From: a virus
IMG/VR virus record: IMGVR_UViG_3300024999_000418
Location: 1 to 22,887 of that record
Strand: one strand, 5' to 3'
Length of the DNA: 22,887 nt
Of this stretch, positions 8,440 through 15,716 are shown one piece after another (positions within the stretch are counted from its first letter, which is position 1; each line of letters opens with the position of its first letter). A model generated the notes under the pieces. It ran no database searches. It saw nothing but the letters and a program-made list of their open reading frames with translations, and was not told the DNA's origin. A program made the translations under genes and the position numbers.

Positions 8440-8473
8440 ATGATGGTTGTATGGACGTTCGATGGTGAACAGG

Positions 8474-9256
8474 GTTTACAGTGTTTGCATGGTTTACATA
8501 GTTTGCCCAGAGCCAGGGATAAATAGTACCACATAGTAGGATATCCATAAAAAGCCCTACAATGCCCGGAAAAGCATCCTTCTCGATATGGCTACCCACA
8601 TAGCCCCACCGCTATAAAAGCCCTCTATAGCCCTTCTAGGACCATTCCTGGCAATATCTATCACAAGATAGCCAACAATAAGAAATTGCCTGTGTACAAG
8701 GTAAACAGGTGGGCATAATGCAAACAAGAAGTAAACACAGGAAAACACTATTAAACACAAGTAAACAAGTAGGCAGGTAAACAAGATAAATCTAGTAATA
8801 ACAGGTAGTTAGCTTGTTTGCAGGTTTGCAAAGAGTAGACAAGGGGCAAACTTGTAAACCGTAATAATATCAGGTAGTTACGCCTGTTTACCCAGGCTTA
8901 CAAGTAAACCCTACCCCCGTCACAGGAGAGGGAGAGGGGTACCTATTTTAGTATTTAATTTTTTTATTAAATAGATGTACTTAAAGGGGTTTGCAGAGAG
9001 GGGGGGTAGGTTTACTTGCATACCCTAGTAAACGCGATAATCTTCAACAATATCACCTGTTTATCCTGTCTACCCCTTGTTTACCTTTCGCAAACAATGC
9101 CCACATGCAAACCATAATTCCCCAACAATATCAGCCACTTACCTGGCTTCGCCAGTCATTTGTTTACCTTGTAAACACAAAGAAAACCCTTGCAAACCCT
9201 TAGCAAACCTTGTATACTACCTGCTAATACCCGGTAAACCATGCAAACCGGTAAAC
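8474..9256. repeat. Iteron-like array of GTTTRC/GYAAAC; candidate replication origin or centromere-like site
   Basis: 28 exact copies of GTTTAC, GTTTGC, GTAAAC or GCAAAC occur in about 780 bp, where equal base use predicts fewer than one. The first four (8474, 8483, 8492, 8501) alternate TAC/TGC at exactly 9-bp steps. A second set (8731, 8741, 8751, 8761) is in 10-bp phase, with variants GAAAAC and TTAAAC in the middle. Later copies are on both strands, often 8-11 bp apart (8816/8824, 8846/8854, 9079/9090, 9192/9203, 9243/9251). An imperfect 66-69 bp duplication is visible (AGGTAGTTA near 8803 and 8872). The array contains an AT-rich palindrome and G-rich tracts, and no gene. It resembles iteron origins or RHH-bound partition sites; three RHH genes lie downstream. 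Confidence 0.75.
8948..8975. other. AT-rich palindrome (possible DNA-unwinding element)
   Basis: TATTTAAT (8952-8959) and ATTAAATA (8966-8973) form a perfect inverted repeat around a T6 spacer. It is flanked by G/A-rich runs on both sides (8921-8938, and 8986-9010 with seven consecutive G). An AT-rich block inside an iteron-like array is the usual layout of an origin melting site. Confidence 0.5.
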
Positions 9257-9317
9257 CCTACACCGCAGCACTTGACAACCTCGGCTACGCCGAACAACCT
9301 CAACAGGAGCAATCACC

Positions 9318-9521
9318 ATGACAAACAAAAAACTTACTACAACAAAAGAAATTGTCGGCATTGAAATCTCTCACAATTCTAACGGAGTAAACATTTTTCT
9401 AACCTTTATTCCGCACGAATACCAGCACATTCACATAGACAGAGACAATAGTGTCGAACTTTGGTTAAATGAACAAGATCTATGGGAAATGGTTAAAAAT
9501 AAGACAACGTCAGTTCTTTAA
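9318..9521 (+). CDS. Small protein, unknown
   Basis: 67 aa from MTNKKLTTTKEIVGIE, with AGGAG 9 nt upstream. It is predicted mostly beta (IVGIEISHNSNGVNIFLTFI), with an acidic Trp-containing C-terminal helix (VELWLNEQDLWEMVKN). This is the first gene after the repeat array, with no strong promoter visible between them, so it may be transcribed from within the array. No family is recognised. Confidence 0.7.
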   Translation: MTNKKLTTTKEIVGIEISHNSNGVNIFLTFIPHEYQHIHIDRDNSVELWLNEQDLWEMVKNKTTSVL

Positions 9522-9598
9522 TCATCCAATAGCTCACAAAGACCTTGCTATGTCTATAAACTAGCAATCTTCTAATAAACTTAAAAGGAGCATCCATC

Positions 9599-10126
9599 AT
9601 GTCAAACCCTACCGTAAGTTTTCGTATCTCCGATTATCACCTTGCCAGAGGATTAAGAGCTATCCGAACTATTGAGCCGAACTGGAAATTAACCACACCA
9701 GCCGAACTGATCAGAACAATCTTTAATGATTACATAGCAAAATCAGAATTTAGCAACAATAGTCCATTAAGCGTAACTCCAGAACTTCTTGAAGAGATTG
9801 CCCTGGCAAGAATGGGAATGATCAAACAGCCAGGACAAAATAACAATCTTGCACCACTCCCACAACTTGGACAAGCAAACAAGCCAGCCTGGCAAATAAA
9901 AAAAGAACTTGAAGAAGAAAAGATATTCATGGCCATCAAGCAAGAACATGCACAAAAGAAAGAACTGTCAGAAAAAGAACTAGCCGAACAAATCAGTTTA
10001 GCTTTTCAAACAGGTCAAAGACTCCCCAAACCGTCAGAATTTCATGATCCAAACAACACCGAGTCAGAAATATCCACCGTAACTGACTTCAGCCCTCCGA
10101 AAGATTGGATTGATAGCGAGGAATAG
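9599..10126 (+). CDS. Ribbon-helix-helix DNA-binding protein (RHH paralogue 1)
   Basis: 175 aa with AAAAGGAG upstream. Residues about 4-50 match an RHH (MetJ/Arc/CopG-type) domain: a beta strand TVSFRIS, then helices HLARGLRAIRTIEP and TPAELIRTIFNDYIAK. Two shorter proteins (12991 and 13263) share this pattern. The rest is a polar tail rich in Glu, Gln and Lys with short helices (ELEEEKIFMAIKQEHAQKK), perhaps an interaction arm. RHH dimers bind short repeated operators and form plasmid partition complexes. This gene lies 340 bp after an array of hexamer repeats, so autoregulation or origin binding is plausible but unproven. Confidence 0.75.
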   Translation: MSNPTVSFRISDYHLARGLRAIRTIEPNWKLTTPAELIRTIFNDYIAKSEFSNNSPLSVTPELLEEIALARMGMIKQPGQNNNLAPLPQLGQANKPAWQIKKELEEEKIFMAIKQEHAQKKELSEKELAEQISLAFQTGQRLPKPSEFHDPNNTESEISTVTDFSPPKDWIDSEE

Positions 10127-12990: not shown

Positions 12991-13266
12991 ATGTCAAGTC
13001 CAATCATAACATTTCGTCTCACTCCCCATCAACTTGCTCACGGCCTTCAGATTGTCCGCAGCCTGGGGCCAAACTTCCAGCTTACAAGTCTTAGCCAACT
13101 AGCCAAGATCATCTACACAGATTACCTGGCAAAAATGACCCTCAGCCAAACAGATGAAGTTTCTCCAGACATTATGCAAGAAATCCAAGTTTTTATCCTC
13201 AATCCCAGAAAGAAAGAAATCAACTTGGCATCTTTAGCCGATGAAGAAAAAGGAGTTCAACTATGA
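12991..13266 (+). CDS. Ribbon-helix-helix protein (RHH paralogue 2)
   Basis: 91 aa with the same N-terminal pattern as the 9599 gene: strand PIITFRLT, helix HQLAHGLQIVRSLGP, then SLSQLAKIIYTDYLAK. Identical or similar positions include the FR at the strand, the xLAxGLxxxR helix and the IxxDYxAK end. A short polar tail follows (VSPDIMQEIQVFILNPRKK). It starts 2 bp after the preceding stop. Its stop overlaps the next RHH start by 4 nt (ATGA), so the pair is co-translated and could form heterodimers. It is a candidate repressor or repeat-binding protein. Confidence 0.75.
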   Translation: MSSPIITFRLTPHQLAHGLQIVRSLGPNFQLTSLSQLAKIIYTDYLAKMTLSQTDEVSPDIMQEIQVFILNPRKKEINLASLADEEKGVQL

Positions 13267-13523
13267 GTAAATCCCGTGTAGTTTCAACTCGCATGACCAT
13301 TAATGACCTTGCCAAAGCACGTGACGGCCTACTGGCTAAGGGCATCGATCCATCTGACTTAACAACAACTAGTCAGCTTATCAAACTTACTTTCTACTAC
13401 GGAATCATTTATCTTTGCCAAGATCCAAAATCTCCACCAAGTCAGGAATCTACAGATTTTATACGGCAGAAATTCAGCAAGACAAGAGTAACCAGAGGAC
13501 TTAATTTGAATGATCTGGAATAA
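13263..13523 (+). CDS. Ribbon-helix-helix protein (RHH paralogue 3)
   Basis: 86 aa, strand RVVSTRMTI then helices NDLAKARDGLLAKGI and TTSQLIKLTFYYGIIYL. It is more diverged than the other two RHH proteins but has the same size and order of elements. AAAGGAG lies at the end of the previous gene and there is an ATGA overlap. The tail is basic (RQKFSKTRVTRGLNLNDLE). It is likely a DNA-binding dimer, and co-translation with RHH-2 suggests a shared operator. No direct target is visible. Confidence 0.7.
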   Translation: MSKSRVVSTRMTINDLAKARDGLLAKGIDPSDLTTTSQLIKLTFYYGIIYLCQDPKSPPSQESTDFIRQKFSKTRVTRGLNLNDLE

Positions 13524-14474: not shown

Positions 14475-15716
14475 ATGGTAATGAAATACAAAGGTAAAAC
14501 TCTTACCACTGAACAAGAAGCTCATGTTAACACCATTCTTGACGGAAACAATTATGCGATCCAGGCACCTCCTGGAAGTGGCAAAACCTTCTTGTTGCTT
14601 GCAATGGCGCGTAAAATGTCAGGATACGGCTTGTCAATCTCATTTAACAAACTTCTCGCTCAAGAGGCATCCACCAAGTTTTCCAGCAACATAATGTGCA
14701 AGACTGGCCATGCGTTAGCCTACGGAGCATTCGGCTACAAATACAAGAAGAAGCTCAGCAAATTGACAGGCAAACAACTGGCTGATAATTTCGATATCGG
14801 CGAGTGGCAACTATACAATAGTCCAGCCAACAAAGGATACTTGATTCTCAATACGATTCGCAAATACTGCTACTCTAGTGACGAAGTTATTCAGTACAAA
14901 CATTTGCCAAGATTAACAATTCTTCAGGATGCTGACCTGGATATTATGCGTGAAAACATTGCCCATATGGCAAATACCATAATCACTGGTTACTATCCAT
15001 ATCAGTTTGAGTACGTACCATTTCATGGCAACGACGATGTTACCTCATCTATTCATTATGAGCCCTTACCAGCTGTAGATGCAATCCTATGCCGGACAAA
15101 CAAAGGCATTATTGCAGAAACCATAGAAGCGCTTGGCAAAAATCTATCAGTCCACATCCTTGGTGGAACACAACAACTTACATATCTTATCAATTCTATA
15201 ATTCAGCTAAAATTGCAGGGATACTCAAATCATCCAGACTTATTCCTTTTTAAGAACTTTATCGATCTTGTTGAATATTCCAATTCTCCAATGGGAGGAG
15301 ATATTAAACCCATCCTAAAGTTAATCGAACTCTATGGCCGAGAAAGATTGCTAAGTATACTTGAATCAACTGTAGAAGATCCAAACGAAGCTGACGTGAC
15401 CATAACTACTGCACATAAAGCAAAGGGTCTGGAATGGTCTAGAGTGAGGCTGGCCAATGATTTTAAAGTTCCGTCCGATCAAGGGAATCCCACAACTGAA
15501 GAAACCAACATATTGTATGTAGCAGCCAGTCGAGCACTTCACCAACTCGATGTAAGCAAATGTGAAGCTTGCTGGCCTTACACTTTTGACAAAGCTCGAA
15601 AGGTTGCCTATGAACAATGGCAAGTAGATCAAATGACTGAACGAGACACTAATACTATGTTTAAAGAAGTTGTTAGTAAACATATCAATGAACTTGAAAA
15701 TGATGTTAAATTTTAA
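14475..15716 (+). CDS. UvrD/FBH1-like SF1 helicase lacking visible motif II
   Basis: 413 aa. Seen: a Q-motif-like TTEQEAHV (11-18), Walker A APPGSGKT (31-38), motif V-type TITTAHKAKGLEW (309-321) and motif VI-type NILYVAASRAL (345-355), all strongly SF1A (UvrD/Rep/FBH1). Not seen: a Walker B DExQD, or the following GDxxQxIYxFRGA and FR motifs. Where they should be, residues about 150-200 pass from the LPRLTILQDADL region directly to RENIAHMANTIITG and AILCRTNKG, as if about 100 residues were missing in frame. GAGGA upstream supports the start. It would be a replication/recombination helicase; without motif II its ATPase may be impaired or need a partner. Confidence 0.8.
   Translation: MVMKYKGKTLTTEQEAHVNTILDGNNYAIQAPPGSGKTFLLLAMARKMSGYGLSISFNKLLAQEASTKFSSNIMCKTGHALAYGAFGYKYKKKLSKLTGKQLADNFDIGEWQLYNSPANKGYLILNTIRKYCYSSDEVIQYKHLPRLTILQDADLDIMRENIAHMANTIITGYYPYQFEYVPFHGNDDVTSSIHYEPLPAVDAILCRTNKGIIAETIEALGKNLSVHILGGTQQLTYLINSIIQLKLQGYSNHPDLFLFKNFIDLVEYSNSPMGGDIKPILKLIELYGRERLLSILESTVEDPNEADVTITTAHKAKGLEWSRVRLANDFKVPSDQGNPTTEETNILYVAASRALHQLDVSKCEACWPYTFDKARKVAYEQWQVDQMTERDTNTMFKEVVSKHINELENDVKF

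Follow-up and report, generated by a model that had tools for sequence, protein, structure and literature searches.

What does a dense, gene-free block of short repeats do in a phage: does it start replication, act as a centromere, or control transcription? We asked this of a podovirus-like phage for which the analyzed stretch (the window) is the whole 22.9-kb virus record, with portal, TerL, and TerS encoded on the minus strand and the early genes on the plus strand. A preliminary description had reported 28 exact GTTTAC/GTTTGC hexamers in ∼780 bp where fewer than one was expected. Our recount likewise gave 28, on either strand, and the chance expectation for positions 8474 to 9256 was ∼0.8 (0.76 assuming equal base use, 0.84 at the GC content of the region). 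The two most frequent hexamers of the region were GTAAAC (16) and GCAAAC (12). Across the whole window, GTTTRC occurred 48 times versus 23.2 ± 4.7 in dinucleotide shuffles, and the rest of the window was at background; the excess is therefore confined to the 8474-9256 block. The four hexamers alternating between TAC and TGC at exact 9-bp steps were found as described (starts at 8474, 8483, 8492, and 8501), as were the G-runs and the AT-rich palindrome, which is a near-palindrome at 8944 to 8973, and the block is free of conserved genes. The 10-bp phase claimed for another run stood only in part: the best period was 10.0, and its score of 0.311 exceeded the 95% jitter value (0.257) but stayed below the jitter maximum (0.429), a weak signal. 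Palindromic motifs obtained with two-strand EM were an artifact of symmetrizing and were left unused, and Rfam gave nothing near threshold for an RNA element. A 67-aa ORF (9318 to 9521) in the interval between the array and the gene of the proposed array-binding protein, RHH1, had no match in the fetched relatives and a sub-threshold match to DUF4160.

Table 1. Positions of the features of the repeat locus and of the related RHH genes in the window
Feature	Position	Strand	Remarks
Iteron array, 28 GTTTRC	8474..9256	both orientations	Recounted; enriched in homologous regions of relatives
Outermost left block, four hexamers at 9-bp steps	8474..8506	+	Starts where the swapped segment starts
Left iterons, mostly GTAAAC on the + strand	8701..8782	-	
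IHF-like site TATCAGGTAGTTA	8868..8880	+	1 mismatch to WATCAANNNNTTR
Left arm of core dyad, iteron GTAAAC and C-run	8901..8918	+	
AT-rich core TATTTTAGTATTTAATTTTTTTATTAAATA, candidate unwinding element	8944..8973		Retained across types A and B despite replaced flanking iterons
Right arm of core dyad, G-run and iteron GTTTAC	9001..9018	+	
IHF-like site TATCACCTGTTTA	9051..9063	+	1 mismatch to WATCAANNNNTTR
IHF-like site TATCAGCCACTTA within island CCCCAACAATATCARCCACTTAC	9129..9141	+	1 mismatch to WATCAANNNNTTR
Early promoter TTGCAA-N17-TATACT	9190..9218	+	Sigma-70-like; iterons cover the -35 hexamer and also lie within the spacer
Swapped segment, array and putative DNA-binding half of RHH1	8474..9970		Right border ∼9871 to ∼9998, depending on the relative
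RHH1, proposed array-binding protein	9599..10126	+	Residues 1-50 RHH-like; residues 97-138 a long helix; C-terminal tail acidic and conserved, ESEISTVTDFSPPKDWIDSEE
RHH2, RHH-like paralogue	12991..13266	+	
RHH3, RHH-like paralogue	13263..13523	+	

Is the array conserved in related phages? IMG/VR was scanned with TerL and with RHH1, which yielded ∼30 contigs covering the locus. In ∼20 related podovirus contigs, the locus carried either GTTTRC, as in the window (type A), or GGTGMC/GTGTMC (type B). Type A comprised the window, L083, L084, L035, L085, L087, L088, and L143, with up to 43 GTTTRC in 1150 bp; L006, L034, L044, and L086 were partial or sparse members. The lack of enrichment in homologous regions that the preliminary description had named as a refuting result did not occur: GTTTRC numbered 24 to 43 in six close relatives of type A whose region was complete, versus ∼2 in shuffles. 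Type-B phages (L089 to L097, L010, L013, L018, L022, L025, L141, L144, L145, and L148) had no GTTTRC array, and GGTGMC and GTGTMC occupied the same place, with 21 to 27 type-B hexamers versus ∼3 in shuffles and hardly any overlap between the types. The loci obtained first served to define the type-B motif, and L141, L144, L145, and L148 were fetched afterwards; in these four the A and B counts were 0 to 1 versus 11 to 29, and in the later-fetched type-A locus L143 they were 29 and 0. The distance between neighboring iterons was 8 to 10 bp for type A and either 10 or 20 to 21 bp for type B, and helical phasing in type B (10.5 to 10.8 bp) exceeded every jittered control at the six loci tested. 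Each genome checked had at most one array, with the remainder at background. Beyond this group, the distant single-RHH phages L146, L147, L151, L154, and L156 had no clear array, and neither did EBPR podovirus 1 have a GTTTRC array, a distant relative whose terminase is the closest annotated one to that of the window (53%). RHH1 and RHH2 had no matches in annotated phages.

Comparison of the two types revealed where one replaces the other. In half of the six close type-B phages (L090, L091, and L096), DNA homology with the window stopped at 8473, the base adjoining the first iteron; the end was at 8472 in L095 and at 8470 in L089. Homology restarted only inside RHH1, between ∼9871 and ∼9998; type-A phages aligned to the window almost throughout. 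Against the six close type-B phages, identity was 97 to 98% for TerL, 82 to 91% for RHH2, and 80 to 88% for RHH3, versus 38 to 41% for RHH1. Array type tracked the N-terminal half of RHH1: with the right breakpoint inside the gene, the predicted DNA-binding half moves with the array and the tail stays, and the tail sequence TESEISTVTDFSPPKDW is nearly invariant between types. In one phage (L098/G006), whose array was of the GTG type, a full-length B-type RHH1 came after a truncated A-type copy. The TerS tree forced at least three A/B switches, and the motif followed in 3/3 independent pairs, a number too small for significance. These comparisons show the array and the putative DNA-binding half of RHH1 to be one exchangeable cassette, swapped more than once between near-identical phages. 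Part of the joint exchange could reflect linkage, the two being adjacent. The proposal that RHH1 reads the array by binding it is well supported by genome comparison. Among the three RHH proteins that had been put forward as binders, the one encoded at 9599 (RHH1) thus covaries with the array, and those at 12991 and 13263 do not; RHH2 and RHH3, 80 to 91% identical in type-B phages, were rejected as array readers. RHH2 and RHH3 lie close together in most relatives, and in G003 and L030 an RHH1-like C-terminal tail sits on an RHH2-like protein.

What kind of protein is RHH1? It had no significant matches in Pfam, PHROGs, NCBIfam, or PDB sequences, neither the full-length protein nor its N-terminal domain had a significant Foldseek match among PDB folds, and the RHH_1 profile found nothing in these genomes. 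The AlphaFold2 model (pLDDT 82) has residues 1 to 11 extended, helices at 12 to 25 and 34 to 49/54, followed by the long helix and, last, an acidic tail that is disordered; no strand was assigned, the model being that of a monomer. We infer that RHH1 is a ribbon-helix-helix protein, with which the model fits. In hhalign comparisons with P22 Arc, Mnt, and Cro, only the Mnt strand aligned, over 10 columns with a probability of 1.5%: the Mnt motif PHFNFRM resembles PHMSFRL in type B and PTVSFRI in type A. If this weak register is correct, RHH1 would face the DNA with positions 5, 7, and 9, as Mnt does with its DNA-contact residues 6, 8, and 10. Type A has T, S, and R at these positions, and type B has H, S, and R, so that strand position 5 differs between the types (T versus H).

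The promoter ahead of RHH1 has a type-B counterpart, TTGACA-N18-TATACT, with GGCACC or GTCACC in the spacer, so that the spacer holds the type's own iteron in both A and B. Promoter-like matches per se were not more frequent than in shuffles, and the call of an early promoter is supported because it is conserved between relatives rather than by the match itself. Binding of RHH1 to both the array and its own promoter is strongly implied.

Inside the swapped stretch, only the AT-rich core with its C-run/G-run inverted arms and one IHF-like island were retained between types. The inverted pair around the core (iteron and C-run, then G-run and iteron) was present in nearly all inspected relatives, with the arms 67 to 115 bases apart and an AT-rich tract in between. 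The arms covary (CCTCC/GGAGG, CCACC/GGTGG, GTAAAC/GTTTAC, and GTACAC/GTGTAC), and the plus strand of the dyad region, as single-stranded DNA, folded better than shuffles (z −2.9). The exact IHF consensus occurred in the array region of 9/10 relatives checked; the window has three 1-mismatch sites instead. G003/L029 and L030, which are without RHH1, had only 4 to 9 GTTTRC around the same core; a large array is therefore not required by all relatives. Since the core persists in G003 and L030 with so few sites, and with the RHH1-like tail on an RHH2-like protein, the core may be what is indispensable, and the large array may only enhance it.

Can the locus be a replication origin? The relatives encode a replisome of their own: G002 has a family A polymerase with UDG, a DUF3987 primase-helicase, and NAD ligase, and G004, taken as complete because of its 127-bp end repeat, has a DUF3987 protein and a RepB-type primase. 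The preliminary description had recognized no matching initiator, and we likewise found no DNA-binding initiator among the proteins scanned; RHH1 had no match in Pfam or PHROGs to the RepA_N or Rep helicase initiators of the PLE and SaPI types. GC skew did not mark the array as an origin, and an AT-skew switch near the array was discarded as an origin sign, being confounded by gene orientation. A literature search on RHH proteins and iterons at phage origins found nothing relevant, and we know of no RHH-based replication initiator. We infer a replication origin as the best functional reading of the locus because it combines iterons, an AT-rich core, and IHF-like sites at a single place in phages with their own replisome and no recognized initiator. 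On balance, RHH1 is probably the cognate binder of the array, the autoregulator of its promoter, and the origin protein at this iteron/AT-rich/IHF-like locus.

How might such an origin work? RHH1 dimers would bind the hexamers via the N-terminal beta strand (residues 4 to 10) and line up side by side at 8- to 11-bp steps, flanking the AT-rich core on both sides, with DNA bending at the IHF-like sites assisting their assembly. Through the iteron in the spacer, RHH1 would also repress its own promoter. The assembled complex would open the AT-rich core, and the conserved tail would recruit the phage RepB-type primase, DUF3987 primase-helicase, and family A polymerase. The locus would then serve as an iteron-type origin, and its initiator or origin-organizing protein, which carries no annotation, would come in at least two specificity alleles. 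We put forward more tentatively, and with appreciable doubt, that an RHH-type protein on a 25- to 40-site array around an AT-rich dyad starts virulent-phage replication and that cassette swapping, which leaves the recruiting tail and the unwinding core unchanged, produces origin compatibility types.

The strongest competing explanation is an operator with a purely transcriptional role, in which RHH1 would repress or silence the early promoter, the array would be a cooperative operator, and the types would mark immunity or exclusion, with no role in replication. RHH proteins are typically repressors, and phage repressors with divergent specificities mark immunity types; the array also lies in a gene-free gap ahead of the early genes, and the allele-specific iteron is within the RHH1 promoter spacer. 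We nevertheless consider this reading less likely, given that 28 to 43 sites in 780 bp are far beyond the need of one promoter, that they occur in one place per genome versus the dispersed stoperators of cluster A mycobacteriophages (PMC9283540), and that the iteron swap spared three elements ahead of the promoter, namely the AT-rich core, its dyad, and the IHF-like site. Moreover, no Phage_integrase was found in six relatives of 59 to 68 kb, one of them complete (G004); lysogeny or immunity via an integrase was rejected on this ground. A different possibility is that another factor owns the array (a host protein, a terminase at a pac site, or RHH2/RHH3) and that RHH1 is swapped by linkage only. 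The array does adjoin RHH1 and both are exchanged in one segment, and the TerS gene is ∼2 kb from the array. However, TerS, TerL, RHH2, and RHH3 are 80 to 98% identical despite the other motif, and the right breakpoint splits the predicted DNA-binding half of RHH1 from its tail, making this explanation improbable; a terminase pac site was rejected, as TerS is conserved across both array types.

Still less probable is a ParR/parC-like centromere, with RHH1 as the adaptor and a motor protein moving the DNA. In parC of plasmid R1, two iteron blocks flank a promoter and the adaptor is an RHH protein; our locus is laid out alike, with an RHH-like protein as the candidate adaptor, two repeat blocks, and a putatively autoregulated promoter, and the conserved RHH1 tail could touch a motor. 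In contrast to R1, the array is larger, the gene set is that of a virulent-looking phage without integrase, and no motor protein was found: the six 59- to 68-kb relatives, one complete, had no ParA-type ATPase (AAA_31), the six had no tubulin-type GTPase, and StbA/ParM was not found in a search that lacked a positive control. A partition system was rejected, no motor gene having been found. The initial alternative of an iteron origin or an RHH-bound centromere is thereby narrowed, with the iteron-like array and a probable RHH-like binder standing and the centromere disfavored, as no ParA, tubulin, or integrase was found in the six relatives. Short repeats can also expand through slippage, but a chance or low-complexity expansion without function is scarcely credible for an array whose position and density are conserved in relatives with clearly diverged DNA and which comes in two motif types, with preferred spacings and a helical phase.

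How does the locus compare with known systems? P22 Mnt and Arc have few operator sites, versus the 28 to 43 here. The cluster A mycobacteriophage stoperators (PMC9283540, PMC6550527) are likewise many short sites with diverging immunity specificities, but they are dispersed over the genome, whereas here all sites are in a single block. The PLE satellite of Vibrio cholerae replicates from an iteron origin with RepA (PMC8263062, PMC7145576); replication occurs only when the cognate origin and repA allele are together, and the module is exchanged between relatives (PMC8263062). The likeness lies in a modular initiator and iteron origin, both putative in our phages, swapped between relatives; the PLE origin, however, has three ∼30-bp semi-palindromic iterons and a RepA_N-protein RepA, whereas the tailed phages here have 28 to 43 hexamers and an RHH-like protein that carries no annotation. 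SaPI of Staphylococcus aureus, with a Rep helicase and an iteron ori (PMC7581432), has multiple short iterons at an origin adjoining the gene of a binder that recognizes its cognate origin, as RHH1 is predicted to do at the putative origin here; SaPI Rep is itself the helicase, whereas the small RHH1 has no ATPase and a different protein, with DUF3987, is the helicase. Lambda-type origins, with O protein and iterons (PMC7466680), share the iterons, the AT-rich region, and a small phage-encoded binder (here a proposed one), but lambda has few iterons, located inside the initiator gene, O is not an RHH protein, and no O homologue was found here. The phage locus differs from the PLE and lambda systems in protein family, site number, and host element and is not a member of these families.

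Near-identical phages with either repeat type and the matching half-protein amount to a natural swap experiment, and the DNA-reading code (e.g., T5 versus H5) is therefore directly testable. A phage group without a recognized origin or initiator gains probable ones. Our comparison suggests that virulent-phage origins diversify in the way that PLE replicons or the incompatibility groups of plasmids do. As part of the reading in which RHH1 is the initiator, and equally tentatively, competition among phages or satellites that infect the same cell may shape the compatibility types; types would have reason to diversify because PLE alleles act as a module and because ectopic lambda origins block lambda (PMC4488673).

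Several other features were observed in these phages and contigs. The UvrD-like helicase of the window (14475 to 15716) has 413 aa versus 516 aa in G002 and is otherwise ∼95% identical; ∼100 residues are gone in frame around position 165, and these are the site of the UvrD N-terminal motif match in G002. In L038 (8702 to 11254), the TerL gene is interrupted in frame at the Walker A motif (ANRIGK/SEGIG) by ∼360 residues that look intein-like and end in HN at the C terminus, with no intron at that site in Rfam. The TerL match is also late-starting or split in L033 to L037 and L042; the TerL of the window is without the insert of L038. Directly downstream of RHH1, the type-B phage G002 encodes a 669-aa protein with a full-length match to phrog_1735 (L101, 12338 to 14347), and the window has only short ORFs at this place. 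G002 also encodes an N6/N4 DNA methyltransferase fused to a ParB-like N-terminal domain (L100, 12384 to 13814), a fusion that does not speak for partition. An RHH1 relative with a GTG-type array was found in L160 (DYOB01000193.1), which is labelled as a Borreliella garinii MAG from sample SulCav and is probably a mis-binned phage contig.
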